NCBI GenBank assembly: GCA_028485475.2
Contig: CP144143.1
Span: 2,790,001-2,854,000, forward strand
From: Chitinophagaceae bacterium C216
Lineage (GTDB): Bacteria > Bacteroidota > Bacteroidia > Chitinophagales > Chitinophagaceae
DNA length: 64,000 nt
Direction of reading: 5' to 3'
Shown piece after piece: positions 24,452 to 42,200 of the stretch. Positions within the stretch are counted from its first letter, which is position 1. Each line of letters starts with the position of its first letter. The position numbers and the translations under genes were made by a program. The notes beneath the pieces are model-generated. The model searched no databases. It was not told the origin of the DNA and saw nothing but the letters and a program-made list of their open reading frames with translations.

Positions 24452-24480
24452 ACCGCTTCTCATTAAGGAAGCGGTTTTTT
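24452..24480 (+). terminator. Rho-independent terminator 178 bases after the sigma-factor gene
   Basis: ACCGCTTC (24452-24459) pairs with GAAGCGGT (24468-24475), followed by a T run to 24480. The T run is on the plus strand, so it ends transcripts coming from the sigma gene rather than from lacI. The 24274-24451 stretch before it holds no reading frame I can support. Confidence 0.85.
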
Positions 24481-25495: not shown

Positions 25496-25887
25496 ATTTG
25501 AAATATAATCATTTTTTCGACACGATACTATATTCCGAATAAATAAAAAAGCACACTACTTACCACTACTCTACACCGCATACTTAGACGTTACCAACGC
25601 AAAAAGGTTGATGCACACTTGAAAAATGCCTTAAGAAGAAATTTTACAAACAATTTCAAACGTTGTAACAGACTTTTTTGCGCCAAGCATTTTTAATGAG
25701 TGATTGTATTCTCTACTTTTACAGTGAATGATTGCTTAGACGAAATTATTGCTGTGCTATAATGAAAAGTATTAACCTAAAAAGTTAATACCATGCCAGA
25801 GGGACTGAGAAGCTGCTTATTTGCATTATAAAAACTGCAATTCCATTTAGAAGTATTGTATTGCCATAGCTATAACTCATAACATCT
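25496..25887. other. Divergent regulatory region between lacI and the decayed susC
   Basis: This 392-base non-coding gap holds the operator at 25653-25668, a possible -7 element TACTTTTA at 25714-25721, the leader word GATTGCT at 25730-25736 (shared with the intact susC leader), and a small hairpin GTATTAAC/GTTAATAC at 25769-25776 and 25784-25791. No reading frame in it looks real. Confidence 0.6.
25653..25668. promoter_or_regulatory. LacI-type operator, copy 1 (lacI / decayed susC)
   Basis: ATTTCAAACGTTGTAA, an imperfect palindrome around a central AACGTT with the central CG typical of LacI-family operators. It is identical over 16 bases to the sites at 28807, 36755 and 42087, and over 20 bases (25649-25668) to the second copy. 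Lying between the divergent genes, it probably also serves autoregulation of lacI. Confidence 0.8.
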
Positions 25888-27240
25888 ATGACTAGTTATT
25901 CCTTTAAAACAAAACAAAAGTACCTTATACTACTTGCATTGTGCAATCTTGCAATATACATCGCTATTGCCCAAACCCCGCAAAACAAAAATGACGATGT
26001 AATAAATGCCACTTATCAAAGATTATTTAATGAAGACAGTATTGTGTTGCTGCATAAAGAAATGCCTAAAGAGCGCCTACTGCAGGCGACAGCAACTGTG
26101 TATACGCCTCAACTAATCACTACCCCATCCCCCTCTTTCCTTCAGGCATTACCGGGAAGGTTATCAGGACTATACACCAGACAACGTAGTGGATTTCAAG
26201 ATACAGACAATCCCACCGGTATCATTGATTTTAAAATTAGGGGACAAATACCGATAATATTGGTGGATGGTGTGCCTAGAGATTTTGCATCCATAGATCC
26301 CGAGTCGATCGAAGCTATCACCATTTTAAAAGATGCTCCCGCAACCGTAATGTATGGACAACGTTCTTCCAAAAACATTATTCTGGTTACAACCAAGCGC
26401 CCCACGACCCAGCCTTTCCAGATGTCCGTTACGGCCCAAAGGGGTATTCAGGATTTTCTAACCAGGTCCAAGCCCTTGTCTGCTGCGGATTACGCAATAC
26501 TCTACAATGAAGCCCGCAACAACGATGGACAGCTACCTGTATATTCTGCCAGTGATATTCTAGCTTACCAAAACGGCTCTGATCCACTTTTTCATCCAGA
26601 CAATGATTATAAAAAATATTTCCTCAATAAAAACGCCGCGCTGGACAGATACAATGTGAATATTCAAAGCGGCAACCAGATAGCAGCTTTTTACGTTGCA
26701 TTGGATTATCAGAGAGAGGGAGGCTTTTTCAATACTGCTGATATCAATTCCTACAATACTAACACAGGTACAGATCGATACATTGTACGTTCCAACGTGA
26801 AAGTACAATTAAATAAATCTTTGAATGTAGGATTAAATATTTTTGGTCGTATACAAAACGCCAATCAACCCGGCGCTACTACAACCAATGTCTTCAATGC
26901 CATTACATTTACCCCGGCCAATGCTTACAGCATTTTCAATCCAGATGGATCATTAGGGGGCAATGACAACTTCTCCAATAATATTTATGGAATGCTAAAT
27001 CATTCTGGCTATTACAAGTCCACACTCCGTGATTTATCCAGTGATATAGAAATCACTCAAAAGTTAGATGCTTGGCTGAAAGGGTTGTGGATTAAAGGAA
27101 ATTTATCTTACAATAATACTGTCGATCAAACTGTAAACCGCTCTAAGAACTTTGCTACATACAGATTAAGTATTGCATCTGGGGCACCGGTATATACCCA
27201 AATCGGTACTCATTTCTTCCCAAACATTAGCATCATCTAG
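25888..27240 (+). pseudogene. Truncated SusC-like TonB-dependent receptor (N-terminal 450 residues)
   Basis: The 450-codon frame has a signal-peptide-like start (YLILLALCNLAIYIAIAQ) and a SusC plug domain: FLQALPGRLSGLYTRQRSG, IILVDGVPRDFASIDPESIE, AITILKDAPATVMYGQRS and ILVTTKRP. It has the first barrel strands and then stops; intact SusC proteins here are about 1046 residues. The usual N-terminal carboxypeptidase-regulatory-like domain is also missing. Downstream the next frame encodes the tail of an unrelated DNRLRE-domain protein, so a deletion joined the two near 27205-27220. No SusD follows. It still carries an operator upstream. I regard it as a decayed receptor, although the truncated frame may be expressed. 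Confidence 0.85.
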
Positions 27241-27772
27241 TGCATATGTAATGAGCGGCATGTATCAAAAACATTCCTTTCATAATGAAAAAATATTAAA
27301 AGTACAATTGGATGCATCGCAGCCTAATAATAATGCAGTATCCTATGCTTATTTTGACTTCGATAAAACCGCTGCTCAAAAAGCTGATCTTATCTTACTA
27401 AAAGTAAAAGGACATACCAACAAAACCACCGCACCATACAGAATACATGTATATGGAATAAGAACCGACAAATGGAACAGTAAAACTCTTAACTGGAATA
27501 ATGCCCTTTTATTAGACGACACCGAAGCTTTAATAAATAGTGCCGCAGAAGAAGTTTTTGTTGCCGGAGAGATAGCATTTACAAATAAAGAAAAAACGCA
27601 CTATCTTGACATCACAAACCTTGCAAAAAAATATACTGCCCAAGGTTTTACGTTTGTGTTTATAAGAGAAACTCGACAGCTGGGTGACGATGAAGACAAA
27701 GGCTACTACGTTAATATAAGCAATCAATCAGATAATAAACCGGAATTGATTTATTGGATAAAAAAACAATAA
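27206..27772 (+). pseudogene. C-terminal fragment of a DNRLRE/CBM96-type secreted protein
   Basis: From about 27206 a frame shifted relative to the SusC fragment reads SSQTLASSSAYVMSGMYQKH, a typical DNRLRE-domain beginning, followed by AYFDFDKTAAQKADLILLKV, RIHVYGIRTDKWNSKTLNWN, YLDITNLAKKYTAQGFTFVF and a C-terminal KPELIYWIKKQ. Such domains sit at the C-terminus of secreted polysaccharide-active proteins and bind carbohydrate. The frame is open to 27173, but those codons overlap SusC in another frame and are meaningless. The catalytic part that should precede it is gone, so this is the far end of the same deletion. An ATG at 27251 could start a short product, but there is no signal peptide. 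Confidence 0.75.
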
Positions 27773-27885
27773 AGATTAAAAACAATAAATGGTATTATAC
27801 GTTATTTTAAATTAGCTGTTAAATAGCATGAAAGCCCAAGAAAACATAGCAAACAATATTAATTAACAATTAACATAGAGTATTT

Positions 27886-28701
27886 ATGGCCGATTTTAGT
27901 TTAAATGGTAAAGTAATTGTTGTTACAGGTGGCACCGGAATTTTGGGAAAATCATTTGTACAAGGAATAGCACAAGCTGGGGGGATCCCATGCATTCTAG
28001 GACGAAATGAAGCTGTAGCCAATGAGCGTGCCAGTGAAATCATTGCTGCAGGAGGAAAAGCCCTAGCCCTAAAGGCTGATGTAACAAATGAGAATGATTT
28101 AGTTAATGCAAAAGATGAAGTACTAAAACATTTCGGTAAAATTGATGGTCTGGTAAATGCCGCAGGTGGTAATATACCCGAAGCTATTGTGCAGCCCGAT
28201 GCAGACCTTTTTAATTTAAATATGGATGGCCTAAGAAAAGTTGTTGAACTGAACTTATTCGGCACTGTTCTTCCCACCCAAATCTTTGGAGCAGCTATAG
28301 CACAAAACAGTACTGGAGGTTCCATTGTGAATATATCATCAATGGCATCCCAACGAGCCATAACCCGTGTGCTAGGCTATAGCTTGGCCAAAAGTGCTAT
28401 AGACAGTTACACCAAATGGTTTGCTATGGAACTAGGCAATAGATACAAAGACCTCATACGAATGAACGCCATTGCACCTGGTTTCTTCCTTACCGAGCAA
28501 AACAGAACATTATTAACAAACAGCGATGGAAGCTATACTGAAAGAGGAAATCTCGTTGTTACACACACTCCATTCAAAAGACTGGGAGATGCAGACGAAC
28601 TCATCGGAGCTTTGGTATGGTTACTCAGTGATGCATCCAAGTTTGTTACCGGAACAGTCATTAACGTAGATGGTGGATTTTCAATATTTAGTGGCGTTTA
28701 A
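27886..28701 (+). CDS. SDR-family oxidoreductase, probable D-mannonate oxidoreductase
   Basis: A 271-residue short-chain dehydrogenase. The NAD(P) site is TGGTGILG at residues 14-21, the NAG motif is in GLVNAAGGN, and the catalytic triad is the Ser in IVNISSMAS, Y165 and K169 in GYSLAKSAI. The sequence resembles the Bacteroidota SDRs annotated as D-mannonate (fructuronate) oxidoreductases, including the long insertion DADLFNLNMDGLRKVVELN. Fructuronate reduction belongs to uronic-acid catabolism; no uxuA or uxaC is in view. It follows the decayed receptor by 113 bases and ends in its own terminator. Cytosolic. The SDR fold is certain, the substrate is inferred. Confidence 0.75.
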   Translation: MADFSLNGKVIVVTGGTGILGKSFVQGIAQAGGIPCILGRNEAVANERASEIIAAGGKALALKADVTNENDLVNAKDEVLKHFGKIDGLVNAAGGNIPEAIVQPDADLFNLNMDGLRKVVELNLFGTVLPTQIFGAAIAQNSTGGSIVNISSMASQRAITRVLGYSLAKSAIDSYTKWFAMELGNRYKDLIRMNAIAPGFFLTEQNRTLLTNSDGSYTERGNLVVTHTPFKRLGDADELIGALVWLLSDASKFVTGTVINVDGGFSIFSGV

Positions 28702-28716
28702 TGCCACTTTTTTTTT
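28690..28716 (+). terminator. Rho-independent terminator overlapping the SDR stop codon
   Basis: AGTGGC (28690-28695) and GCCACT (28703-28708) form the stem, with the TAA stop codon inside the loop, followed by nine T residues (28708-28716). Confidence 0.8.
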
Positions 28717-28806
28717 ACCCTCCTTATACTTAACTTCCTATCCTATCTATCAAGTCCTGTCTCCAATCCTGCGGCCATCCTGTATTAAACATTTAAGCCT
28801 TCAACA

Positions 28807-28822
28807 ATTTCAAACGTTGTAA
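28807..28822. promoter_or_regulatory. LacI-type operator, copy 2 (susCD operon 1)
   Basis: ATTTCAAACGTTGTAA, identical to the other three copies and sharing 20 bases with copy 1. It ends 35 bases before a possible -7 element TATTTTAG, so it lies upstream of the likely promoter rather than on top of it. Confidence 0.8.
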
Positions 28823-28863
28823 TAACAAGTATTGATACAATACTAAAGCTAATTGTGTATTTT

Positions 28864-28904
28864 AGCAATCGCCGTTGTTTTCAACAGGAACAACAGCGAT
28901 TGCT
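28864..28904 (+). repeat. 16-bp hairpin in the susC leader
   Basis: Arms 28864-28879 and 28889-28904 pair at 15 of 16 positions (one C-A mismatch), beginning with AGCAATCGC and ending with GCGATTGCT. The loop is nine bases. No T run follows, so it is not a plain terminator. It sits right after the candidate -7 box, at the 5' end of the transcript. Confidence 0.75.
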
Positions 28905-28971
28905 TGACTTGGAGACTGTTTATAACGTAAAAAACTTTTATTTAAAATCAAAATGCTTATTAATCACAGTA

Positions 28972-28996
28972 GGATTGCTAGTCACATAAGCAATCC
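28972..28996 (+). repeat. Second leader hairpin with the same stem word
   Basis: GGATTGCT (28972-28979) pairs perfectly with AGCAATCC (28989-28996) around a nine-base loop. The words GATTGCT/AGCAATC are the same as in the hairpin at 28864-28904, so the four arms could pair in alternative combinations. Confidence 0.65.
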
Positions 28997-29113
28997 ATAT
29001 GCTTGCATTGTAATCTGTTAAATATTTCAGCAAAAGAACATTTTATCATTAATAAATAAAACTCGGGATACGGATTTATTAAGGATTCGTACGCCCATTA
29101 TTTTAAAAAGCAT

Positions 29114-32100
29114 ATGAGAGTACTGAAACAAACTTTGCTTAGCACAATGCTAACTGCCTTCTATTTAATCCATCTGGATGCGGGGGCACAGGAGACGCTG
29201 GTAACAGGTACTGTAAAAAACTTAAACGATGAGTTTCTTGAAGCTGTATCAGTAGTTGTAAAACGCACTTCGCAAACTACGCTCACCAATCATCTTGGAG
29301 AATATTCCATTTCGGTCCAACCAAACGACTCACTCATTTTTTCTTACGCCGGCATGGAACCTCAAACCATTGGCGTATCGGGAAGGAAGGTTATAAATAT
29401 TATCATGAGACCCGCTGCGGACAGAGAACAATTAGAAGACGTAGTGGTGGTTGCCTTCGGTACACAGAAAAAATCGGAAATAGTAGGTTCTGTGACTCAG
29501 GTCAAACCTGAGGAACTAAAAATCCCTTCCAGTAATCTTACTACAGCACTAGCTGGACGCGTTCCGGGCATGATTGCGTTTCAAAGAACAGGGGAACCCG
29601 GTGCAGATAATGCAGAGTTTTATATACGAGGTCTTACAACTTTTGGATATGGACGCGGTCCTTTGATTCTAATAGATGGTATTGAATCCACCACAAATGA
29701 CCTTGCTCGAATTAATGTAGATGATATCCAAAGCTTCAATGTATATAAAGACGCAACAGCTACAGCATTATACGGAAGTAGGGCTGCCAATGGAGTGATT
29801 GCTATTAACACTAAAGAAGGGAAAAAGGGCAAAACCAATGTTACCCTACGCGTTGAAACGAGCCTTTCTAAGAACACAAAAGATGTGGAGCTGGCTGACC
29901 CTATTACTTATATGAAGCTTAATAACGAAGCCATCCTCACGCGCGATCCTCTGGCTCCTCTTTTATATTCTGAAGAGAAAATAGACAATACGGTTCCTGG
30001 TTCCGGTTCTTATATCTTCCCGGCAACGGACTGGCGCAAAGAATTATTCAAAGACCATACTATTAATGAACGAATAAATCTGAGTTTGAGCGGCGGAGGT
30101 GACGTTGCTAAATATTACGTAGCCGGTACCTTCACTCAGGATAATGGCCTATTGAAAGTAGACAAAAGAAATAACTTCAACAATAACATTGACTTTAAAA
30201 CATACTCCTTACGCTCCAACGTAAACATGTACATATTCCCAACAACAGAGATGATTGTGAGGCTATATGGAGTTTTCGAGGATTATAATGGCCCTATTTA
30301 TTCCGGAGGAGATATGTATACACGTGTGATGCGGGCTAACCCGGTACTTTTCCCTCCCTACTATCCTATAGATGAAAAGCATAAATATGTAACCCATATT
30401 ATGTTTGGAAACTATGACGGCTCCTATCTCAATCCATATGCGGATATGGTAAAAGGCTACCAAGACAGAGGTCGCTCAAAAATAGGAGCGCAACTGGAGT
30501 TAAAACAAGACCTTAAAGCCATTACTCCCGGACTGAAAGCCAGAGGCCGTTTAAGCACAGACAGACACTCCTACTTTACTATTACAAGGCAATATATCCC
30601 CTTTTACTATGGGCTTTCTAACTATAACATAAGAGACAATACTTATAATATCTATCTTATCAATGAGGCACAAGGTAGAGAAACCCTTAGTTACGACGAA
30701 GGTCTTAAACAAATCAACTCAACCATATATGGTGAGGCGGCTATTGATTATTATAGAACATTGGGGGCTCATACCATCAGTGGTATGGTGATCGGATATT
30801 TTCAAGAAAGATTAAATCCTAACGCTGGCAACATTCAGGAATCGCTCCCCTTTAGAAATATCGGATTATCGGGAAGAGCTACATATGGATATAAAAATCG
30901 TTACCATGCAGAGATCAACTTTGGCTACAATGGTTCAGAACGTTTTCATCAATCACATCGGTGGGGCTTCTTCCCTTCTGCAGGTATTGCTTGGACAGTA
31001 TCTAACGAGCCTTTCTTTGAAAACCTGAAAGACAAAATCAATAATCTCAAACTAAGAGCCACATATGGATACGCCGGTAAAGATGATATAGGAAGTGCCA
31101 GCGATCGCTTCTTCTACTTATCCGAAGTAAACCTCAACAATAGCAGTTATGGTGCAGTTTTCGGACGCGACAACGGATACTCTCGTCCGGGTATTTCCAT
31201 TTCGCGCTACTCAGATCCGAATATTACTTGGGAAACTTCAAGAGATGCCAACTTTGCTATAGAGTTAAGTTTTCTTAGAAAATTAAATCTTATAGCCGAA
31301 TACTATATACGCAATAGATACAACATTCTTCAACAACGTTCTTCAACACCGGCTTCTATGGGATTGTGGGCACAACCGCAAACCAATATAGGTGAGGCAG
31401 AAGGCAAAGGGGTTGATATAGATTTAAATTTCAATCACACCTTTAAAAACAATTACTTCATACAACTCATGGGTAATTTCACCTATGCTACCTCAAGATA
31501 TAAAGTGTATGAGGATTATAATTATCCCGGAGCTCCGTGGCGCGATAGAACCGGTTATCCCATTAATCAACGCTGGGGTTATATAGCATTGGGATTATTT
31601 GCTGATGAAGCAGAGGTAGCAAACTCTCCTACTCAAGGATTCGGTGAATACATGGCCGGTGATATAAAATATAAAGACGTAAATGGCGACGGAAGGATTA
31701 CCGAACTCGATATGGTTCCCATCGGCTATCCCACCACACCTGAAATAGTTTACGGGTTTGGTATCTCGGGTGGTAATGACAGATTTGACATTTCTGTTTT
31801 CTTTCAGGGTTCGGGCAGATCTTCTTTCTGGATAGATCCTGAAGCTACAGCTCCGTTCACACCTTATTACTATAACAGCGATGAACGCAATTCCGGAATC
31901 AAATATGTAAATCAGTTATTAAAAGCTTACGCTGATAGCTACTGGTCAGAGGACAACCGGGATTTGTATGCTATGTGGCCACGTCTAAGCACATATCCTA
32001 TCACTAATAATATTCAGTCCAGCACATGGTTTATGCGCAACGGAGCTTTCCTGAGGCTAAAACACATAGAGATTGGATACAAGTTTACACCGCAATTATT

Positions 32101-32257
32101 AAAAAGAATCGGGCTCTCCTCTGCAAGACTGTATTTAAGTGGCGTAAACCTTTATACATGGAGCAAATTCAAAACATGGGATATTGAGATGGCAGGAAAC
32201 GGGCTCAGATATCCGAATCAGAAGGTATACAACTTAGGCCTGTTAGTTAATTTTTAA
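29114..32257 (+). CDS. SusC-like TonB-dependent outer-membrane receptor 1
   Basis: A 1047-residue outer-membrane transporter of full SusC length. A signal peptide (residues 1-25) is followed by a carboxypeptidase-D regulatory-like domain (VTGTVKNLNDEFLEAVSVVV and DSLIFSYAGMEPQTIGVSG). The TonB-box/plug region begins LEDVVVVAFGTQKKSEIVGS and contains LAGRVPGMIAFQRTGEPG, PLILIDGIES and YGSRAANGVIAINTKEG. The rest is a 22-strand barrel ending in the aromatic YNLGLLVNF. With SusD (22 bases downstream) it forms a lidded complex that imports oligosaccharides using TonB energy. It heads a four-gene operon under operator copy 2. The glycan is unknown. Confidence 0.96.
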   Translation: MRVLKQTLLSTMLTAFYLIHLDAGAQETLVTGTVKNLNDEFLEAVSVVVKRTSQTTLTNHLGEYSISVQPNDSLIFSYAGMEPQTIGVSGRKVINIIMRPAADREQLEDVVVVAFGTQKKSEIVGSVTQVKPEELKIPSSNLTTALAGRVPGMIAFQRTGEPGADNAEFYIRGLTTFGYGRGPLILIDGIESTTNDLARINVDDIQSFNVYKDATATALYGSRAANGVIAINTKEGKKGKTNVTLRVETSLSKNTKDVELADPITYMKLNNEAILTRDPLAPLLYSEEKIDNTVPGSGSYIFPATDWRKELFKDHTINERINLSLSGGGDVAKYYVAGTFTQDNGLLKVDKRNNFNNNIDFKTYSLRSNVNMYIFPTTEMIVRLYGVFEDYNGPIYSGGDMYTRVMRANPVLFPPYYPIDEKHKYVTHIMFGNYDGSYLNPYADMVKGYQDRGRSKIGAQLELKQDLKAITPGLKARGRLSTDRHSYFTITRQYIPFYYGLSNYNIRDNTYNIYLINEAQGRETLSYDEGLKQINSTIYGEAAIDYYRTLGAHTISGMVIGYFQERLNPNAGNIQESLPFRNIGLSGRATYGYKNRYHAEINFGYNGSERFHQSHRWGFFPSAGIAWTVSNEPFFENLKDKINNLKLRATYGYAGKDDIGSASDRFFYLSEVNLNNSSYGAVFGRDNGYSRPGISISRYSDPNITWETSRDANFAIELSFLRKLNLIAEYYIRNRYNILQQRSSTPASMGLWAQPQTNIGEAEGKGVDIDLNFNHTFKNNYFIQLMGNFTYATSRYKVYEDYNYPGAPWRDRTGYPINQRWGYIALGLFADEAEVANSPTQGFGEYMAGDIKYKDVNGDGRITELDMVPIGYPTTPEIVYGFGISGGNDRFDISVFFQGSGRSSFWIDPEATAPFTPYYYNSDERNSGIKYVNQLLKAYADSYWSEDNRDLYAMWPRLSTYPITNNIQSSTWFMRNGAFLRLKHIEIGYKFTPQLLKRIGLSSARLYLSGVNLYTWSKFKTWDIEMAGNGLRYPNQKVYNLGLLVNF

Positions 32258-32278
32258 AACTGTTAATCTGAGAGAACT

Positions 32279-34183
32279 ATGCAACGCAAATTATTCATAA
32301 TTGTTATGTTAATTACATTATCCCTTACTGCATGTAAAAAATATTTGGATGTAGTTCCGGATAATATAGCCACCATCGATCATGCATTCAACATGAGACA
32401 GCAGGCAGAGAAGTTTTTATTCACCTGCTACAGCTATCTTCCCCGACACAGTGTCTTATCGGGTTCAGCCAATGAGAATCCTGCATTAGGAGCAGGTGAC
32501 GAACTTTGGTTTCACAATTTCTATCAACCTTATAGCTGGAACATAGCCCGTGGATTTCAAAACGTGGTTAATCCTTACAACAATTTCTGGCAGGGCACAC
32601 AAGGCGGTAAAGACTTATATCAGGGCATTAGCGATTGCAATATCTTTCTTGAAAATATAGGTAGAACACCCGATATAGATCAGAGTGAAAGACTCCGGTG
32701 GATTGCCGAAGTAAAGTTCCTGAAAGCTTATTATCATTATTATCTCACAAGAATGTATGGCCCCATTCCTATTAAAAGAGTAAACTTACCCATCAATGCC
32801 GATCCGGAAACGGTGCGTGTCTTCAGAGATCCGGTTGACTCTTGTTTTAATTATGTAGTACAGTTATTAGATGAAGCCATTGCTGACTTACCGGATCTCA
32901 TCACGAATGAAGCAGATGAATTAGGACGTGTTACTAAGCCCATTGCACTAGCTATTAAAGCCGAGGTACTAGTTACGGCTGCCAGTCCTCTTTTCAATGG
33001 CAATCCGGATTATGCCAACTTCAAAGACAGTAGAGGTGTACAATTATTCAATCCTGTGTACGATCCTGAAAAATGGGTAAAGGCTAAAGAAGCCTGTAAA
33101 GAAGCTATTGATGCTTGTCATGCTGCAGGACATAAGCTGTATTATTACAGCCAAAGTGTGAGACAATATAATGTACCGGAAGTGATTCGCACGCAGATGA
33201 ACATTCGAAATGCATTCAATGAAAAGTGGAATGCCGAAATTGTTTGGGGTAATACCAACAGTATGGTGGACAACCTTCAGATTCAATCTACACCAAGAGG
33301 CCTAGATCCCGCACTCAGAGCTTCACGCAGTACCTTAGGGAATTGTGCAGTGCCATTAAAAATTGCAGCGCTTTATTATTCCAAAAATGGGGTTCCCATC
33401 GAAGAAGATAATAGCTGGAATTACGGCGCACGTTTTAATCTTACCCAAGGTACCCCCGAAAACAAATATTATATCGTTAATGAATATACAACTGTCCGTT
33501 TTAATGTGGATCGAGAGCCTCGGTATTATGCTAACCTAGGATTCGATGGTGGCGTTTGGTACGGACAGGGTAAATTTGACGCAGATGATACATGGTATGT
33601 TTCCTCAAAGAAAGGTGAACCTGCGGCTAATATTGCTAACGACAGTTATAACAGTACAGGCATCTGGCCGAAGAAATACGTCAACTATGTAAATGTTATC
33701 CAAAGTAATACTTACTCCAGAGAAAATTATCCTTGGCCGATAATTAGATTAGCAAACCTGTATCTCCTATACGCTGAAGCATTGAATGAAGTAAACGGTC
33801 CCTCCAATGAAGTATACTACTATTTGGACTTAATCAGACAGAGAGCCGGATTGCCCGGCGTAGTAGATGCTTGGACGGCATACTCTACTAATCCTACCAA
33901 ACCATCAACTAAAGAAGGACTCAGAGAGATTATACACAGAGAGCGTGCTATCGAACTCATGTTTGAAGGACAACGATTCTGGGACTTAAGAAGATGGAAA
34001 AAAGCAATTGACGAGTTAAATCAACCCATTACTGGGTGGGATATCGATCAGGTAACTCCGGCAGGTTATTATCGTGAGAAAGTACTATATCAACAAACAT
34101 TCGGACTCAAGGATTATTTATGGCCGATACGTGAAGTAGAAATATTTGCCAATAATAATACGGTACAAAACCCTGGTTGGTAA
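32279..34183 (+). CDS. SusD-like surface glycan-binding lipoprotein 1 (RagB/SusD family)
   Basis: A 634-residue lipoprotein. The signal peptide ends in the lipobox SLTAC, followed by KKYLDVVPDN, typical of SusD. Tetratricopeptide-like helices carry the conserved AEVKFLKAYYHYYLTRMYGP and IRLANLYLLYAEALNEVNG. The C-terminal SusD signature is REIIHRERAIELMFEGQRF followed by WDLRRWKKA. It acts as the lid of the receptor encoded just upstream. The next gene begins within about 30 bases of its stop codon. The bound sugar cannot be inferred. Confidence 0.95.
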   Translation: MQRKLFIIVMLITLSLTACKKYLDVVPDNIATIDHAFNMRQQAEKFLFTCYSYLPRHSVLSGSANENPALGAGDELWFHNFYQPYSWNIARGFQNVVNPYNNFWQGTQGGKDLYQGISDCNIFLENIGRTPDIDQSERLRWIAEVKFLKAYYHYYLTRMYGPIPIKRVNLPINADPETVRVFRDPVDSCFNYVVQLLDEAIADLPDLITNEADELGRVTKPIALAIKAEVLVTAASPLFNGNPDYANFKDSRGVQLFNPVYDPEKWVKAKEACKEAIDACHAAGHKLYYYSQSVRQYNVPEVIRTQMNIRNAFNEKWNAEIVWGNTNSMVDNLQIQSTPRGLDPALRASRSTLGNCAVPLKIAALYYSKNGVPIEEDNSWNYGARFNLTQGTPENKYYIVNEYTTVRFNVDREPRYYANLGFDGGVWYGQGKFDADDTWYVSSKKGEPAANIANDSYNSTGIWPKKYVNYVNVIQSNTYSRENYPWPIIRLANLYLLYAEALNEVNGPSNEVYYYLDLIRQRAGLPGVVDAWTAYSTNPTKPSTKEGLREIIHRERAIELMFEGQRFWDLRRWKKAIDELNQPITGWDIDQVTPAGYYREKVLYQQTFGLKDYLWPIREVEIFANNNTVQNPGW

Positions 34184-34209
34184 TAAATTTTCAAGTAATA
34201 AACAAGATT

Positions 34210-35409
34210 ATGATGAACAGATTGCACATAACATATATTTCAATGTTTTGCTGCCTGACGTTAATATGGGCATGCTCCAGAGAAAAATATATTGGACCTT
34301 TAGAAGATGGACCGGCACCGGGTTCCGTATCTGTAGTCTCTGTAAGAGCATTACCCGGAGCCGCAGTTGTAAAATACAAGCTTCCTACAGACGCTAATCT
34401 ACGTTATGTAAAAGCAGTATATGAAATAAGACCCGGAGTAAAAAGAGAAAGTATTGCTTCTCAATACGTAGATAGTATTTTGGTGGATGGTTTTCCTGCA
34501 GTAAAGGAGTATGAGATACAGCTATATGCAGTAAGCGAAGGTGAAAAACCATCTCAACCCGTTAGTGTAAAGTTCACGCCACTTACACCCCCCTTGCTGG
34601 AAGCTTTTAATACATTTGAGTTCAGCGAAACATTCGGCGGCACTACAATTTCTTTTAGTAATAGTGGAGAAGCTAGTCTGGCAGTAACCTTATTAACTAC
34701 AGACTCTTCGGGGAAGCTGACTGAGGTAGAAACTTACTATACCAAATCTGCACAGGGAAGATATTCTTTACGCGGATTTCCTAGCGTGCCTCGACTATTT
34801 GGAGCTGTAATCAGAGATCGTTGGGGTAATTATTCTGATACTATTACCGAAACGATTACACCTATCTTCGAAGAAATGATTCCTAAGGATCAGTTTCGCA
34901 TTGTGGCATTACCTACCGATGTTGCCGGAGGTCATGCCAACGCTAGCTGGACACTAGATAAGTTATGGGATGGCAACTATGGATCGGGGTCAGCTCCGTT
35001 CCATACGCGCCCTGGCTCAGGAATCCCTCAGTGGTTTACAATTGATATGGGTAGATTATGTTACCTAAGCCGGTATAAATTCTATCACCGATACGGCACG
35101 CAATATGTTTATCAGTTAGGCGCGCCTCGTAAATGGGAAGTATGGGGCTCTGCTACAGCGCCTGATCCTTCGGGTAGTTGGAACGGCTGGATTAAACTCA
35201 TGGATTGCGAATCCTACAAACCCTCGGGCGAGGGACCGATTACAGCAGAAGATGCAACATTTGCATCAGAACAAGGAGAAGACTTTGTATTTCCGGAACA
35301 GATTCCCGTAAGATATCTGAGATTCAAGATAAATGAAACCTGGGGTTACCTTGACTATATTTATATAGCAGAACTAACCTTCTGGGGAGATGCAGATATA
35401 ACACCATAA
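34210..35409 (+). CDS. Surface lipoprotein with DUF4959/DUF5126/DUF5000-type discoidin architecture
   Basis: About 400 residues from the ATG at 34210 (a second ATG at 34213 is equal). The frame is open from 34177 inside susD, but only the later start puts the signal peptide and lipobox LIWAC at the right distance. After CSREKYIGPLEDGPAPG come two fibronectin-like modules (about 30-220), then an F5/8 type C-like jelly-roll with ASWTLDKLWDGNYG, PQWFTIDMGRLCYLSRYKFY and PVRYLRFKINETWGY. Proteins of this layout accompany SusC/SusD and are believed to be accessory glycan-binding proteins on the cell surface. It is the third gene of the operon and resembles its neighbour in layout. Confidence 0.85.
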   Translation: MMNRLHITYISMFCCLTLIWACSREKYIGPLEDGPAPGSVSVVSVRALPGAAVVKYKLPTDANLRYVKAVYEIRPGVKRESIASQYVDSILVDGFPAVKEYEIQLYAVSEGEKPSQPVSVKFTPLTPPLLEAFNTFEFSETFGGTTISFSNSGEASLAVTLLTTDSSGKLTEVETYYTKSAQGRYSLRGFPSVPRLFGAVIRDRWGNYSDTITETITPIFEEMIPKDQFRIVALPTDVAGGHANASWTLDKLWDGNYGSGSAPFHTRPGSGIPQWFTIDMGRLCYLSRYKFYHRYGTQYVYQLGAPRKWEVWGSATAPDPSGSWNGWIKLMDCESYKPSGEGPITAEDATFASEQGEDFVFPEQIPVRYLRFKINETWGYLDYIYIAELTFWGDADITP

Positions 35410-35436
35410 ACACTTACCTATCCCAATGAATAAAAT

Positions 35437-36549
35437 ATGAAAAAGTATAGTTTTCTTACAATATTAGCATTGATGATCCTACTTTTGAGCACCTGCTCTA
35501 AGATGGATGATACCTATAAAGAGTATCTTAACTATGGCCAATCAAAATATCCCGGAAAACCGGTGCAGGTAAAAGTACTTCCGGGTTATAATCGACTTAT
35601 ACTAACATGGACCAATTCAGCCGATCCTAAGGTTACTCACGCCAAGGTGTATTGGAACAATCGTGCAGACTCGGTTCAAGTGCCAATTGATCCCTCGATC
35701 GAATCAGTATATATCCCTTTCAATAATATGCCTGAAGGGCCATATGTATTTGAAATATACACATTCGATAAAGAAGGGAACAGTTCAATTAAGGTTGAGG
35801 CTATTGGCCGGGTTTATGGAGATGTATACAAGTCCAGACTCTTGTCGCGACCTATTAATGATGCCACCGTTGTTAACGACAGCTTAAACATCCTATGGGG
35901 TAGTCTGTCGGATACAACAATTATCGGAACAGAAGTGAAATACATAGACAATAATGATGAACCAAGGCTGTTCTTTATCGACAAAAGCGTCTTACTTTCT
36001 ATGACTCCCGACTTCTCGCGGGGAGATATTGAGTACCGAACCGTATATCTGCCTGTTAATGCCATCGACACTTTCTATACAGATTGGGTGGGAATGTATG
36101 TAAAAGGGCAGAGATACCCCTTACCTAAAGATGGTTGGGTAGCTACAGCATCCAGCTTTGATACTCGCCCGGGTAGTAGCTACAGACCTCCATCTAATCT
36201 TATTGACAATAACCCCAGTACTTTATGGGTAAATCAAATATCGCCGCAAACTTATTATCCGCACTGGGCAGCCATTGATATGGGAGATGTAAAATCTATT
36301 GAAGGATTCATCGTACGACAAAGACCAGAAAACGTAAATCCTGTAAAAGATATCGAATTGTATACCAGTATGGATGGTGTTAACTGGACGTTCCATATGA
36401 AATACACACTCGAAAACCGTGCAGGTGCGGAGCATTATATTGATTTACCGGAGACTACACAAGCTCGCCATATTAAATTGATTGCATTGAATGATTACGG
36501 AAATTCAAACAATGTAGCCTTAGCTGAATTTGGAGCTTATGCACGCTAA
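35437..36549 (+). CDS. Surface lipoprotein with DUF4998 and F5/8 type C (discoidin) domain
   Basis: A 370-residue lipoprotein with signal peptide and lipobox LLSTC at residues 16-20. An N-terminal DUF4998-like part (GKPVQVKVLPGYNRLILTWT, HAKVYWNNRADSVQV, EGPYVFEIYTFDKEGNSS) leads to a C-terminal discoidin jelly-roll (PSNLIDNNPSTLWVNQISPQ, HWAAIDMGDVKSIEGFIVRQ, ELYTSMDGVNWTF, ARHIKLIALNDYGNSNNVAL). A role in binding sugar at the cell surface is inferred from the domains and from its place in the susCD operon, of which it is the last gene. It is 27 bases after its relative, and a perfect 11-bp terminator follows at 36642. Confidence 0.85.
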   Translation: MKKYSFLTILALMILLLSTCSKMDDTYKEYLNYGQSKYPGKPVQVKVLPGYNRLILTWTNSADPKVTHAKVYWNNRADSVQVPIDPSIESVYIPFNNMPEGPYVFEIYTFDKEGNSSIKVEAIGRVYGDVYKSRLLSRPINDATVVNDSLNILWGSLSDTTIIGTEVKYIDNNDEPRLFFIDKSVLLSMTPDFSRGDIEYRTVYLPVNAIDTFYTDWVGMYVKGQRYPLPKDGWVATASSFDTRPGSSYRPPSNLIDNNPSTLWVNQISPQTYYPHWAAIDMGDVKSIEGFIVRQRPENVNPVKDIELYTSMDGVNWTFHMKYTLENRAGAEHYIDLPETTQARHIKLIALNDYGNSNNVALAEFGAYAR

Positions 36550-36641
36550 AGTGCACACATAGAGCCACTTAAATAAATTAAATAAGTTAAGTTAAATATT
36601 CAAACACCTTCGTCATAACCATCTACTCGTGCTCACATCAC

Positions 36642-36668
36642 AAAAGTTCCCCAAAGGGGAACTTTTTT
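36642..36668 (+). terminator. Rho-independent terminator of susCD operon 1
   Basis: AAAAGTTCCCC (36642-36652) pairs perfectly with GGGGAACTTTT (36656-36666) around an AAA loop, followed by TT. The stem end doubles as the T run. It separates the first susCD operon from the second. Confidence 0.92.
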
Positions 36669-36918
36669 CATTTCTAGAAGCCTTCCATCACCCTTCACAA
36701 AATCGTTTTTTCACTAAAGCTGCTACCAGCAACGACTTCGGAATAAAATTTTCTATTTCAAACGTTGTAAATAGGGATTACAGGTGATCAAAAGTGCAAA
36801 GTCTCAAGTTGTAATAGATATTATTTATTATTGTTTCACTCAATTGCCTATACTCTTTTGAGCTTGCCAGTTTTTCATTTGAAAAATCATTTACAGTTTA
36901 AACGTTAAAGCCATTCGT
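36669..36918 (+). other. Leader and control region of susCD operon 2
   Basis: This stretch holds operator copy 3 at 36755 and is otherwise AT-rich. It lacks the GATTGCT/AGCAATC hairpins of the first operon. A degenerate operator-like sequence (36801-36814) lacks the central AC and is probably not functional. I see no clear -33/-7 pair. Confidence 0.5.
36755..36770. promoter_or_regulatory. LacI-type operator, copy 3 (susCD operon 2)
   Basis: ATTTCAAACGTTGTAA, identical to copies 1, 2 and 4, about 150 bases before the second susC start. The flanks differ from the other copies, so conservation is limited to the operator itself. Confidence 0.8.
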
Positions 36919-39900
36919 ATGAAAAAGTATTTATCAAAAAAACGGCCCAGAAAAACTTTGCTTGCATTTACTTTTCTAAGCTCTCTATTCATTATTCCTC
37001 ACTTCACAAAGGCACAAAATCAGGAAGTCAGGGGTAGGGTTATTGACGAACAACAAAAACCCATGAAGGGAGTAAGTGTTATTGTTAATAATACAACCCT
37101 AGGTACAGCAACGAACGATAGTGGCTACTATCATATTTCGGGAGTGCCAGCAAATGGTACACTCGTATTTAGCCATACCGGCTATAACAATCAGGAAGTT
37201 CAGGTGGGTGGTCGCGCAGTAGTAGATGTAACAATGACGCCCATCGCCTCTAGCATGGACGAAGTAGTGGCCATCGGTTATGCTACGGCACGCAGAAGAG
37301 ATGTTACAGGAGCTGTAGCATCGGTCAAAGCCACCAATCTCGAAAAAGAATCGCCCCGATCGGTTCAGGATCTTTTAAGAGGTAATGCTGCCGGTATTAT
37401 TGTGGGTATGACTAACGATGCAAAATCTACTGCCAGCTTTCTGGTGAGAGGTAGTGGAACACTGAAAGCAAGTAACAGTCCACTGAATGTCGTGGACGGA
37501 GTGATATTTGACGGTGCTTTTACAGACATCAACCCCAACGATATTGAGTCTATCGACATTCTTAAAGATGCGAGTGCTACTGCTGTATTTGGAGCCAGAG
37601 CCGCCAACGGAGTTATTTTGATTACTACCAAAAAAGGTGCAAGAGGTAAGCCCCGTATCACTTTTAATAGTAATATAGGCTTCGTAAAAGAAGTAGGAAC
37701 GCCCCGTGTAATGAATGCTGAAGAATTTCTTAAATGGCGCTATGATTATGAAATGGGGAAAAACAACGATGCTTACCACCAACAATATCCAGAGAAGTTT
37801 GTAGATCCGCGAAAACTTCAAAACGTAGATCCCTTGACATGGTACAACTACGACATGCAGACTCCCGTTACCTCTGTTACCGAGGAAGAATTAATACGCA
37901 TGTGGTTATCCCGCCTAGAGTTAAAAGCGCCCGAAATTGAAAACTATTTAAATAATAAAATTACAAACTGGCAAAAACTAGTTTTCCAGAAAGGGTTCCA
38001 GCAGGATTATTCAGTAAGTGTATCTAATAGAAATGATCAATCCAATTATTATTTCTCCTTAAACTATGTGGATCGTAAAGGAGTGATTGTTGGGGATCGT
38101 TATAAAAATTTTCGTACTAGGTTAAATCTGGAATCGAAAATCACGTCCTTCTTAAAAGTAGGCGCTAATACAAACTTCGCCGTACGTGATGAAGGTTTTC
38201 TCCAAGCTGACTGGGGACAAATGACCAACATCTCTCCTTTTGGCTCCAATAATCTGGATGATCCCAATAGCCCGTTCAGACGACTGCCCACCGGAGACCC
38301 CACTCCTGTCAATCCATTCCACGACAATCTTTATCGGGATAGAAAGGACATGTATAATACCTTAAACTCAAGTATCTATGGTATTATCAATCTACCTTTG
38401 GGTATAGAATTCCAGTCCACCTACACGCCTTCCTTCGTATGGAGAGAATTCTATAACCACGAATCCTCCAAAAACCCGCAATGGACGGCAACCGGGGGCT
38501 CCAGCGAGCGTACATTCGAAAAAACCTTCAACTGGCAAATAGATAATATCATCAGATGGAAACGTCGCTTTAACGAACATAATGTTGAAGTAACTTTATT
38601 ACAGAATGCTGAAAAGGGTCAGAGGTGGCGCACTACCGCCAAATCTTCACAATATAGTCCCAGCGACATTCTGGGTTATCACCGCTTGCAGGCAGGGGCT
38701 GTTCCTTTAGCCGAAAGTGATGATACTTATAGAACTGGTGATGCATTAATGGGAAGAGTGTTCTATTCTTTCAAAGATCGCTATATGATTACAGCATCTG
38801 TGCGTCGCGATGGGTATTCCGCTTTCGGTTCTCAAAATCCCCGTGCTACATTCCCCGCATTGGCATTTGCCTGGGATTTCTCAGAAGAAAAATTCATGAG
38901 CAATATCCAATGGCTCGATTATTCCAAATTAAGACTTTCATGGGGTAGAAACGGAAACAGAGAAATTGGTATTTATGACGCATTGTCTGATATGACCTCC
39001 GGCCTACACCCGTATATAGATCAAAACGGCAACATTTATCTGTACTCTCAGCTATATGTTAACCGTATGGCCAATCTGGCTCTGAAATGGGAAGCTAAAG
39101 AGTCCTACAACCTAGGGCTTGACTTCGGATTGTTCAATAACAGATTAAGTGGTAGCATTGATGCTTATATCGCTACAACCAAAGACTTATTGGTGGATCG
39201 CGTGCTTCCGGAAATTATCGGATTCAATAGCGTAGCTGCCAATCTAGGTAAAATGGAAAATAAAGGCTTCGAATTTACCCTCACAGGAGATATTATCCGT
39301 AAGAGTGATATCAAATGGACCTCTTCCGTAATCTTCATGCTGAATCGCAGGAAAATCAAGAGTCTTTATGGCGATATGATCGACATTTTGGATGAGAACG
39401 GCAATGTAATCGGTCAAAAAGAAGCAGATGATATTAAGAATGGCTGGTTCATAGGTCAGGATCCAGATAGATACTGGCATTATGAACGCATTGGCGTATG
39501 GCAAATCGGCGAAGAAGCCGAAGCAGCCAAATATGGTAATCAGCCGGGCGATTTCAAATATAAGGATCAAAACGGAGACGGTATTCTTTCCAATGAAGAT
39601 CGCATCTTCCAAGGATACTCTACACCGCGCTTCCGCTGGTCATGGAGAAATGATATTGATTACAAAAACTTCAATCTCTCTTTCTTCCTTTACTCCAATT
39701 GGGGACAAATGGGAACATTCAACCGTGCGGCTAATAATGCCAGCTTTACAGACAGGACTACTGATTATGCAATGCCCAGATGGACTCCAGACAATCCGAT
39801 CAATGATTATGCACGCATAGGTTCTAAAAACCTAGGCAATAATTATGTGGAGCGCTCATTCATTCGACTCGAAAGCGTTGCGCTTTCTTATGCTGTCCCC

Positions 39901-40059
39901 AAACACATACTTAACAAAATAAATGTAATGGGACTGAGAATATCAGCATCAATAAGAAATGCTGCTGTATGGGCCCCTAAATGGAAATTCGGAGATCCAG
40001 AATCAGGCGCCAACCCTACACCCCGCACCTACAACTTAAGCTTTAACTTAACCCTTTAA
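36919..40059 (+). CDS. SusC-like TonB-dependent outer-membrane receptor 2
   Basis: A 1046-residue receptor of full length. The signal peptide ends near KAQ (residue 33). The regulatory-like domain has VRGRVIDEQQKPMKGVSVIV and NGTLVFSHTGYNNQEVQVGG. The plug includes MDEVVAIGYATARRRDVTGA, SVQDLLRGNAAGIIVG, LNVVDGVIFDG, SIDILKDASATAVFGARAAN and GVILITTKKGARGKPRI. The barrel ends in NLSFNLTL. It is clearly divergent from the first SusC, so it probably takes a different substrate or chain length. It is cotranscribed with the SusD gene 11 bases downstream and controlled by operator copy 3. Confidence 0.96.
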   Translation: MKKYLSKKRPRKTLLAFTFLSSLFIIPHFTKAQNQEVRGRVIDEQQKPMKGVSVIVNNTTLGTATNDSGYYHISGVPANGTLVFSHTGYNNQEVQVGGRAVVDVTMTPIASSMDEVVAIGYATARRRDVTGAVASVKATNLEKESPRSVQDLLRGNAAGIIVGMTNDAKSTASFLVRGSGTLKASNSPLNVVDGVIFDGAFTDINPNDIESIDILKDASATAVFGARAANGVILITTKKGARGKPRITFNSNIGFVKEVGTPRVMNAEEFLKWRYDYEMGKNNDAYHQQYPEKFVDPRKLQNVDPLTWYNYDMQTPVTSVTEEELIRMWLSRLELKAPEIENYLNNKITNWQKLVFQKGFQQDYSVSVSNRNDQSNYYFSLNYVDRKGVIVGDRYKNFRTRLNLESKITSFLKVGANTNFAVRDEGFLQADWGQMTNISPFGSNNLDDPNSPFRRLPTGDPTPVNPFHDNLYRDRKDMYNTLNSSIYGIINLPLGIEFQSTYTPSFVWREFYNHESSKNPQWTATGGSSERTFEKTFNWQIDNIIRWKRRFNEHNVEVTLLQNAEKGQRWRTTAKSSQYSPSDILGYHRLQAGAVPLAESDDTYRTGDALMGRVFYSFKDRYMITASVRRDGYSAFGSQNPRATFPALAFAWDFSEEKFMSNIQWLDYSKLRLSWGRNGNREIGIYDALSDMTSGLHPYIDQNGNIYLYSQLYVNRMANLALKWEAKESYNLGLDFGLFNNRLSGSIDAYIATTKDLLVDRVLPEIIGFNSVAANLGKMENKGFEFTLTGDIIRKSDIKWTSSVIFMLNRRKIKSLYGDMIDILDENGNVIGQKEADDIKNGWFIGQDPDRYWHYERIGVWQIGEEAEAAKYGNQPGDFKYKDQNGDGILSNEDRIFQGYSTPRFRWSWRNDIDYKNFNLSFFLYSNWGQMGTFNRAANNASFTDRTTDYAMPRWTPDNPINDYARIGSKNLGNNYVERSFIRLESVALSYAVPKHILNKINVMGLRISASIRNAAVWAPKWKFGDPESGANPTPRTYNLSFNLTL

Positions 40060-40070
40060 TCATTGATACT

Positions 40071-41954
40071 ATGAAACAGAAACATATATATAAAAGTGCA
40101 TTGCTTGTATCAGCGCTTGCTCTTTCACTTGCAGCATGTAAAAAAGATTGGCTCAAACCAAAGCCCCTATCATTTTACGAGCCTGGTGTAGCACTATCAG
40201 ATGTGCAGGGCATGTATTCTGCGCTTACTTCCTGCGAAAGAAACATGCGCCATGAGTTTTTTGGAGACGGCTCTCCTATTCTTACCGAAATCATCCAATC
40301 CGATGTTGCCGTGGAAGGAACTACAGACAAGGCAGGTCCTCAAATGGATATGGATATATCCTTGTTGCCTGATGCAGACCTAAATAATGTGAATACAACT
40401 CGCGTCGGATGGTATTGGTACGAGGGATACAAAGGCATTAAATACGCCAACTCCGTTATTGCCAGAATAGATAATGCGCAATTTACAAGCGAAGAAGAAA
40501 GAAACGCTGTACTAGGTGCCGCATATTTTCAGAGGGCTTATCGCTATTTCAAATTAACCCACCAATTTGGAGATGTACCTTACATCGGTGATGAAATCAG
40601 CGAACCCAAATATGACTTCTATTCATACGATCGTTGGACTATTTTGGAGCAGATGAAAAAAGACCTAGAGTTTGCATACCAATGGGTGCCGGATAATGTA
40701 GACCGTGGCCGCACTTCCAAATCTGCATGTGGAGTATTGTTGATGAAAATCTGCATGGTGCTTGGAGATTTTGATCGCGCCATCACCATCGGCAAAGAGA
40801 TCGTTGCAGCTCACCCTTTGATGAAACAACGTTTTACTTCTAACAGGAATAAACCTAATACCAATCTGATGTTTGACCTCCACAGTGTAGAAGCTAAGTT
40901 GGACATGTCAAATACCGAGGGATTGATGTATGTGGTAGCTTATCCGGAAGTAACTGGTTCCGATCGTATACAAAGCATGCGCAACGCCGTTCCCTTCTGG
41001 AATAGTGGTAGTGTAATTACACCTGATGGCAGAACCGGTACCAATGTCACACCGGCTGCCGATGAAACAGACCCTACCATGGATTTGAACAAAACTTATG
41101 GCCGCGGAATCGGGCGATTAAGGTCGACATGGTACTTTACCAATGATATCTGGCGCGCCGATAAGGAAGCGAATGACATGCGTGGTATTCACAACCGTGA
41201 TAGCTGGAAACGAATGGAAGATTTGAGATATAATCACCCTAATCTGAAAACAGGGTCCAGTCCCAGTCCATGGTATGGCAAGAACTTAGTAAAACCGGCT
41301 TCTATGAGTGTGGAAGACACTATCCGGTGTTGGTATCCATGGCCTCATTATAAGGTGTTTGTCCCCGATCCACTACAAACACAATGGGCAGGTGGAGAAA
41401 CTCCTTGGTATATCTATCGTTCTGCCGAAGTATATCTGCTACTAGCCGAATGCTATTACTGGAAAGGGCAACCAGCAGAAGCCGCAGTGGCACTGAATGA
41501 AGTTCGTACTAGAGCCGGCGCAGAACCCCTTACTGCCGCTGATATAAACATTGGAGAAATTCTTGATGAAAGAGCCCGTGAATTATATTATGAAGAAAAC
41601 AGACATATTGAACTCGTTCGTATATCTTATATCTACGCAAGAACGGGTAAGTCTTGCGAAGTTTTCGGTGGGCGTGTGTATAAATTAGAAAATCTAAGCG
41701 GACCAGGAGGTACTAATGCCAACGTCAAACAAATGGGCATCAACTTTTGGTACGATTGGGTTGTGACTAAGAACAACTTCTACAACAAAGGTGTAAAACA
41801 CAAATGGGCAGAATACAAAATCAGTGTACACCATATATTATGGCCGGTACCTTCCACAGTAATCACTACCAATATTAAAGGTGTAATCAATCAGAACATC
41901 GGATATCCCGGTGCCGAAAACAATGTACCACCATTAAGAGTAGAGGTGCAATAA
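40071..41954 (+). CDS. SusD-like surface glycan-binding lipoprotein 2
   Basis: A 627-residue RagB/SusD-family lipoprotein. Signal peptide with lipobox SLAAC, then KKDWLKPKPLSFYEPG. Conserved parts are AVLGAAYFQRAYRYFKLTHQ, FGDVPYIGDEIS, YRSAEVYLLLAECYYWKGQ, and a C-terminal ILDERARELYYEENRHIELV that replaces the usual RxxEL/WDLRRW form. It pairs with the receptor directly upstream. No discoidin-like accessory lipoprotein follows, unlike operon 1; a 14-bp terminator stem ends the unit. Confidence 0.93.
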   Translation: MKQKHIYKSALLVSALALSLAACKKDWLKPKPLSFYEPGVALSDVQGMYSALTSCERNMRHEFFGDGSPILTEIIQSDVAVEGTTDKAGPQMDMDISLLPDADLNNVNTTRVGWYWYEGYKGIKYANSVIARIDNAQFTSEEERNAVLGAAYFQRAYRYFKLTHQFGDVPYIGDEISEPKYDFYSYDRWTILEQMKKDLEFAYQWVPDNVDRGRTSKSACGVLLMKICMVLGDFDRAITIGKEIVAAHPLMKQRFTSNRNKPNTNLMFDLHSVEAKLDMSNTEGLMYVVAYPEVTGSDRIQSMRNAVPFWNSGSVITPDGRTGTNVTPAADETDPTMDLNKTYGRGIGRLRSTWYFTNDIWRADKEANDMRGIHNRDSWKRMEDLRYNHPNLKTGSSPSPWYGKNLVKPASMSVEDTIRCWYPWPHYKVFVPDPLQTQWAGGETPWYIYRSAEVYLLLAECYYWKGQPAEAAVALNEVRTRAGAEPLTAADINIGEILDERARELYYEENRHIELVRISYIYARTGKSCEVFGGRVYKLENLSGPGGTNANVKQMGINFWYDWVVTKNNFYNKGVKHKWAEYKISVHHILWPVPSTVITTNIKGVINQNIGYPGAENNVPPLRVEVQ

Positions 41955-41980
41955 TGCAATATATAAGCAGTTTTTCTCAG

Positions 41981-42018
41981 GAATACCATTCTGAATAATC
42001 AGAATGGTATTCATTTTT
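41981..42018 (+). terminator. Rho-independent terminator of susCD operon 2
   Basis: GAATACCATTCTGA (41981-41994) pairs perfectly over 14 bases with TCAGAATGGTATTC (41999-42012), with an ATAA loop, followed by A and five T residues. Confidence 0.92.
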
Positions 42019-42086
42019 AAACTCAAAATAGATTAGCAAAACAGGCTGAATATCGACTCTTTAAACATCATTTTTTCAGCTTAAAT

Positions 42087-42102
42087 ATTTCAAACGTTGT
42101 AA
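42087..42102. promoter_or_regulatory. LacI-type operator, copy 4 (oxidoreductase operon)
   Basis: ATTTCAAACGTTGTAA, identical to the three other copies. It ends 45 bases before a possible -7 element TACCTTAG (42148-42155), the same spacing as between copy 1 and TACTTTTA at 25714. It links the oxidoreductase operon to the susCD operons. Confidence 0.8.
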
Positions 42103-42200
42103 TACAAATTACTCTTCCAAAAATCATCAGAACAAAGATTTATGACGTACCTTAGAAATCACTTTTAACGTTATTCTCCTACTACTTTAAAACGATTGTG

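Follow-up and report, generated by a model that had tools for sequence, protein, structure and literature searches.

Gene content of the locus and the repeated 16-mer

This analysis concerns a LacI-family regulator and four identical 16-bp sequences, candidate operators, in a 64,000-nucleotide stretch of the genome of Chitinophagaceae bacterium C216 (assembly GCA_028485475.2, contig CP144143.1, positions 2,790,001 to 2,854,000 of the forward strand), which over its whole length is referred to here as the window. The regulator gene (24479-25495, - strand) has a GTG start and specifies a protein of 338 amino acids with an N-terminal helix-turn-helix of the LacI type and a periplasmic-binding-type ligand domain, for which PF00356 (1.2e-14), PF00532 (7.7e-28) and PF13377 all score over their cut-offs. 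Its best solved relatives by sequence are a LacI-family structure (7ff4) and CcpA (3oqo), and the letters STVSKAL in the helix-turn-helix are identical in all 15 aligned ortholog rows. In the hinge, the regulator has Phe at the position that we take to be Leu56 of LacI; the same residue is present in the paralogs and is hence unremarkable.

The 16-mers divide the genes next to lacI, all of which are encoded on the + strand, into four runs. Operator 1 (25653-25668) lies between lacI and a run consisting of a decayed susC gene (25888-27240; 450 amino acids with a Plug domain only, as compared to 1047 and 1046 amino acids for the intact copies), an overlapping CBM96-type fragment in another frame (27173-27772; PF24517, 1.8e-13) and uxuB, the gene for a D-mannonate oxidoreductase (a UxuB-like short-chain dehydrogenase/reductase; 27886-28701; NF006132, 331.5 bits with a cut-off of 281). 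The transition from the decayed susC to the CBM96 fragment (25888-27772) is perhaps the remnant of a third susCD-type system. Operator 2 (28807-28822) precedes susCD operon 1, which comprises susC1 for a TonB-dependent receptor (29114-32257), susD1 (32279-34183; PF07980, 4.1e-63) and the genes for a DUF4959-DUF5126-DUF5000 protein (34177-35409) and a protein with DUF4998 and F5/8 type C domains (35437-36549). Operator 3 (36755-36770) precedes susCD operon 2 with susC2 (36919-40059) and susD2 (40071-41954). Lastly, operator 4 (42087-42102) is located upstream of the oxidoreductase operon, which encodes a Gfo/Idh/MocA oxidoreductase (Gfo1; 42198-43631), an oxidoreductase with an Oxidoreduct_C domain (43634-45013; PF16490, 4.4e-143), a DUF6807 protein (45013-46263; PF14100, 2.1e-67) and a ThuA-family protein (46329-47174; PF06283, 2.7e-58). 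As judged by eye, all four of these proteins have export-type leaders, the one of Gfo1 being similar to a twin-arginine translocation (Tat) leader (SRRKFIKN) and the one of the Oxidoreduct_C protein to a lipoprotein leader. The closest named relatives of Gfo1 are from Niabella, the genus to which the bacterium is assigned here.

Exactly four matches to the 16-mer ATTTCAAACGTTGTAA are present in the window, all of them on the + strand. The preliminary description of this DNA had listed the same four positions and had found no other copy in the window. Both observations hold: the four copies are exact, and a search of the window that allowed up to 3 mismatches gave no further one. Moreover, 100 shuffles gave no match to the 16-mer. 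The genome-wide scan proposed in the preliminary description was carried out on the 3.34-Mb single-contig genome, and it showed that the copies are not scattered; the abundance of unrelated copies that would have spoken against the proposed regulon was thus not observed. The exact 16-mer is confined to the four window sites, and a scan at up to 2 mismatches gave 8 matches (4 exact, 1 with one mismatch and 3 with two mismatches). The two-mismatch matches are regarded as noise because a reversed-pattern control gave 9 matches at up to 2 mismatches in the same genome. A chance occurrence of the motif is thus ruled out by the shuffles and the own-genome scan.

The one-mismatch copy (G000:C1:3127604, - strand) agrees at every base with TTTCAAACGTTGTAA, the 15-mer formed by the last 15 bases of the 16-mer (25654-25668 in operator 1). 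This copy is located about 300 kb from the window and about 100 bp upstream of the ATG of a glucuronoyl-esterase-like gene (L072:6178-8505), whose product of 775 amino acids matches PF22244 (3.1e-41) and presumably belongs to CE15. Relatives of this protein at E <= 1e-100 were present only in G204 (two, 43% identity) among the 17 genomes of the genus that were compared. Over these genomes the exact 15-mer occurs 15 times; 14 copies are at regulon genes, provided that the one before the esterase gene is included among them, and one lies within an open reading frame (ORF) of G119. It is unlikely that the 15-mer before the esterase gene is a chance copy in one genome.

The preliminary description regarded the site as a near-palindrome with a central CG, and this is half right. 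Counted by hand, 5 of 7 pairs match around an even centre on the CG, but likewise 5 of 7 pairs match around an odd centre on C8 (TTnCAAnnnTTGnAA).

Association of the site with lacI in related genomes

For the comparison with relatives, 30 sites were gathered by similarity at up to 2 mismatches, so that part of their conservation reflects this selection. The set comprises 28 of the 53 matches in the genus, a two-mismatch site in G197 and a site in a metagenome-assembled genome (MAG) of Flavisolibacter. The remaining 25 matches include 3 possible extra regulon members, 3 matches in ORFs (an exact copy in G119, and those in L207 and L208) and 19 stray copies. A single match in G098 also lies in an ORF and, like that in G119, was set aside. 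The CG is present in all 30 sites, and 12 of the 15 positions (2-6 and 8-14) are the same throughout. Position 1 is variable, position 7 is a T in two sites, and position 15 is a G in nine. Each of the 30 sites reads 5'-3' towards its target gene.

An ortholog of the regulator (50-74% identity) is encoded in 13 of the 17 genomes, and an ortholog of Gfo1 at E <= 1e-120 in 16, G119 being the genome that lacks it. A site with at most 2 mismatches was found at regulon genes or beside lacI in all 13 LacI-bearing genomes, whereas none was found within 2 mismatches at regulon genes in the four LacI-less genomes (G119, G189, G201 and G206; Fisher test p-value of 0.0004, before allowing for relatedness). 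In a tree of Gfo1, the LacI-less genomes fall among the LacI-bearing ones, the placement of G201 being weakly supported. The stray copies listed for the LacI-less genomes at up to one mismatch number seven, five of which lie in ORFs and two between ORFs, away from the regulon genes.

The same targets recur in different gene orders. The site lies upstream of Gfo1 in 12 of the 13 LacI-bearing genomes (11 of 12 if the own genome is left aside); in the remaining one, G204, Gfo1 directly follows susD2. It is placed directly upstream of the susC2 ortholog in five other genomes of the genus (G022, G198, G202, G200 and G207), and it adjoins lacI in 10 of the 13 genomes in several unlike arrangements. 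In G198, G202 and G022, lacI is located behind the ThuA gene without an adjoining site. In G022, where lacI is convergent, both susC2 and Gfo1 have the exact 16-mer, and their products are 70% and 81% identical to those of the window; over SusC2, SusD2 and Gfo1 of both G022 and L119, the identity to the window proteins is 70-88%. L119, which we take to be from G207, has one site in the interval from lacI to susC2 and another, with one mismatch, upstream of Gfo1. The order in L164, taken as G204, is lacI-site-uxuB-susC2-susD2-Gfo1, and that in G196 is lacI-site-uxuB-susC1-susD1 with a second site elsewhere, upstream of Gfo1. The arrangement lacI-site-uxuB is also found in G195, G197 (with two mismatches in the site), G199, G203 and G205. 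Beyond the genus, the Flavisolibacter MAG (L134) encodes a LacI protein with 55% identity and has a two-mismatch site upstream of susC2. In Pedobacter psychroterrae (L133), the genes susC1-susD1-DUF4959-DUF4998-DUF6807-ThuA-Gfo1-GfoC form one run, an independent tie between the import genes and the oxidoreductase genes of the window regulon.

Taken together, the existence of one regulon under this LacI, as put forward in the preliminary description, is well supported by a site that tracks the lacI ortholog and the same targets through different gene orders, and the protein encoded at 24479-25495 is very probably the cognate regulator of the motif. The preliminary description also placed every copy in a promoter region. 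The contexts that it named are right, but operator 1, which it assigned to lacI and the decayed susC, probably serves uxuB (27886-28701) beyond this remnant, because the relatives show the order lacI-site-uxuB.

Two further observations were made in these comparisons. G204 holds a second LacI (L226; 50% identical) beside a susC2-like gene and another LacI-like ORF, and this second LacI could have its own operator. The contigs of Niabella defluvii and N. hibiscisoli (L120 and L121) contain many broken ORFs in the locus, which are probably due to sequencing indels.

Spacing between the operator and a promoter box

Bacteroidota promoters differ from those of E. coli. In F. psychrophilum, the -7 element recognised with sigma-A has the consensus TAnnTTTG at -12 to -5 (PMC9723704), and we searched for the form TAnnTTnG within 110 bp downstream of the 15-mer. 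A single box of this form was present at 27 of the 30 sites, and its distances from the 15-mer fall into three classes of 34/35 bp (n = 10), 44/45 bp (n = 9) and 55/56 bp (n = 8), which differ by steps of one helical turn. Orthologous promoters can change class: Gfo1 has the box at 45 or 34/35 bp, susC2 at 34/35 or 44 bp, uxuB at 34 or 56 bp, and susC1 at 35 or 55 bp. For 12 representatives, the phasing was strongest at 10.5 bp among the periods scanned (R = 0.96); the p-value was 1e-6 when 9 conservative values were used, and 0.0019 with the four within-promoter changes alone.

In the window, TATTTTAG (28858-28865) follows operator 2 at 35 bp and TACCTTAG (42148-42155) follows operator 4 at 45 bp, both on the + strand. 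The boxes TACTTTTA (25714-25721), 45 bp after operator 1, and TATTATTG (36826-36833), 55 bp after operator 3, are on the same strand and also in phase, but each has one mismatch and is weak evidence when taken alone. Several promoters, in particular that of Gfo1, do not show a clear -33 TTTG element as judged by eye without counting. If the box starts at -12, the CG centres of the operators are placed near -53.5, -64.5 and -75.

As a control, we took the 19 stray copies that were found in the genus at one mismatch. Fifteen lie inside ORFs of at least 120 amino acids and four between ORFs (L320, L322, L328 and L334); one of the 19 has a TAnnTTnG box (L322, at 97 bp), and none has a box at 34-56 bp. 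The copy L328, in the LacI-less G189, points away from a nearby SusC-like gene (32% identity), its distance to this gene being about 200 bp.

We also considered whether the phasing is general to the LacI-type sites of the family. This idea was suggestive in the first 30 canonical loci, but it was not upheld over 76, and the same was true of a palindrome next to a LacI gene in L023, whose box is spaced as in the regulon. When the surroundings of 42 LacI genes were scanned for palindromes centred on CG, candidates were obtained at 8 genes and a box in range at one.

As a separate observation, ATTCAAACGTTGTAA is present upstream of an aldose 1-epimerase gene in G022 and G202, and of the gene for a protein with a Tat leader in G198 (L204:5027, L200:5049 and L199:4997; boxes, in part weak ones, follow at 24, 24 and 34 bp, respectively). 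These sites may mark possible extra regulon members.

Mode of regulation and relation to known systems

The boxes are in helical phase with the operator, and this suggests a regulator that touches RNA polymerase from upstream, either as an activator or as a contact repressor like GalR; the same phasing argues against a plain blocking repressor. The LacI protein would bind the 15-bp TTTCAAACGTTGTAA, and its targets would be uxuB, both SusC/SusD import operons, the Gfo/Idh/MocA-ThuA operon of four genes and, at a distance, the glucuronoyl-esterase-like gene. Bound as a dimer on the upstream side of the -33 region, and always on the same face of the helix, it would leave the -33 and -7 elements uncovered and would contact RNA polymerase from there; transcription would most likely be activated in the presence of a uronate-like sugar derived from the imported glycan. 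A contact that depends on the face of the helix appears fairly likely, and one regulon under this LacI with such a phased contact of either sign is still somewhat probable. Placing a regulator at variable upstream positions in whole helical turns is a classical activator pattern, as for CRP. Activation is favoured for this reason, and because several promoters have no clear -33 TTTG, but as the sign of regulation it has about an even chance. In its most far-reaching form, this reading is a tentative one (probability of roughly 0.45), namely a CRP-like LacI-family activator in Bacteroidota that, from an oriented 15-bp operator at positions one turn apart (about -53, -64, -75 and perhaps -43), would recruit RNA polymerase where the -33 element of a promoter is weak and would switch on together two glycan importers, a Tat-exported Gfo/Idh/MocA-ThuA pathway, a mannonate oxidoreductase and a distant glucuronoyl esterase.

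Several points weigh against one regulon with a phased contact. The form of the box was picked after viewing the promoters, so that the p-values are post hoc, and a box limited to T, A or G at its seventh place is found at 21 rather than 27 of the 30 sites. These sites were selected by similarity, and orthologous promoters are not independent. In the own genome, the full TAnnTTnG box is present at two of five sites, the other three being all of the box-less sites among the 30, and at the esterase site there are just TAAATTTA at 49 bp and TAAGTTTT at 86 bp, which are out of phase. At 76 canonical GCAAACGTTTGC sites of the family, no phasing at 10.5 bp was observed (R = 0.09; 19 boxes at 30-100 bp), and a repeat with the box and the tract length of the regulon found boxes in 29 of 152 tracts beside canonical sites, again without phasing (R of 0.06-0.08). 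Furthermore, three LacI-less genomes keep diverged sites beyond 2 mismatches: ACTCAAACGTTATAG upstream of Gfo1 in G189 and G206, with a box at 33 bp (L209:7424 and L211:7894), and TCGCAAACGTTTTAG upstream of susC2 in G201, with a box at 44 bp (L210:3127). They may reflect decay after the regulator was lost, or they may be sites of a related or swapped regulator, in which case another regulator may share the architecture of site and box.

The best surviving alternative retains the same regulon and the same LacI, which would act as a contact repressor from the phased upstream operator and be released by its sugar ligand. We consider it rather unlikely, because the whole-turn upstream spacing is classical for activators and the absence of a clear -33 TTTG at several promoters is what would be expected where an activator is needed. 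On the other hand, most LacI-family regulators repress. At -60.5, GalR represses P1 by contacting RNA polymerase on the same face and activates another promoter, so that phasing leaves the sign unfixed (PMC4693257), and in the numbering of PMC9723704 the present operators would sit upstream at the positions calculated above.

An ordinary steric repressor of the same regulon, with incidental boxes and true promoters that overlap the operator, is improbable. It would be the standard mode for a LacI-type regulator, and the scarcity of full boxes at the own-genome sites is in its favour, but it leaves the in-phase boxes at 27 of 30 sites difficult to reconcile with those of the controls (29 of 152 canonical tracts with a box anywhere, and 1 of 19 strays).

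It is quite improbable that another regulator reads the motif and that this LacI is a bystander. The diverged sites in the three genomes without the lacI ortholog would fit this explanation, and a further LacI paralog (34-37% identity) is listed in 13 of the 17 genomes. However, it is opposed by the co-occurrence of site and ortholog (13/13 versus 0/4) and by the unlike arrangements in which the site adjoins lacI in 10 of 13 genomes. The CG-centred AACGTT core also fits LacI-type sites (PMC4052901). That the four sites are functionless copies from a local promoter duplication can practically be dismissed: the identical 16-mers do lie inside 16.5 kb, but by eye the flanks of the four sites are alike only within the core, and the core is unchanged in relatives although the flanks differ.

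With respect to the substrate, the presence of a mannonate oxidoreductase gene and a glucuronoyl-esterase-like gene in the regulon suggests a uronic-acid-bearing plant glycan. Genes for UxuA and a GH115 alpha-glucuronidase are present elsewhere in the own genome; they are outside the 8 matches at up to 2 mismatches, and the best motif matches in the sequence examined around them have 4 and 3 mismatches, respectively. An uncharacterised gene set (the Gfo/Idh/MocA pair, DUF6807 and ThuA) thereby gains a regulon and a likely substrate class. In addition, about 30 natural promoters with whole-turn changes in operator-promoter spacing offer a test of how a LacI-family protein acts on a Bacteroidota RNA polymerase. 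Four points go beyond the preliminary description: uxuB as a target, the glucuronoyl-esterase-like gene outside the window, the constant orientation of the sites and their helical phasing with the promoter.

In the literature searched, the motif core was not found as letters, and nothing was found on the LacI regulator of this locus, including passages of PMC12125979 and PMC10766802; literature naming both Niabella and a regulon appears to deal with other subjects. From the comparisons below, the regulon appears to be new but of a familiar type, and the pattern of its spacings is unusually clear, the phasing itself being new here.

LacI-family uronate regulators have been predicted in Bacteroides, namely UxuR (BT1434), UxaR (BT0824), KdgR (BT0487) and UxmR (BT3613) (PMC3878776). 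Like these, the present regulator is a LacI-family protein of Bacteroidota with a link to uronate catabolism, its regulon including the D-mannonate oxidoreductase gene. Unlike them, it belongs to another order and its regulon extends over a Gfo/ThuA operon as well as two SusCD systems; the two sets are compared here by description only. GalR at the E. coli gal operator OE (-60.5), which represses P1 and activates P2 by contact (PMC4693257), is likewise a LacI/GalR-family protein located upstream of the promoter, and its effect depends on the helical face and contact with RNA polymerase. The window regulon differs from this system in its three spacing classes over several promoters, in its Bacteroidota-type -7 box and in that the window's target operons contain no further copy of the site. 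Lastly, 1251 of 1303 LacI motifs have been described as even palindromes (PMC4052901). As in the local LacI-family regulons of that study, we find a CG-containing sequence that may be read as a quasi-palindrome, a site beside the regulator gene and sugar catabolic targets, but, unlike most of those motifs, the present one is asymmetric, fits an odd centre equally well and is kept in one orientation.

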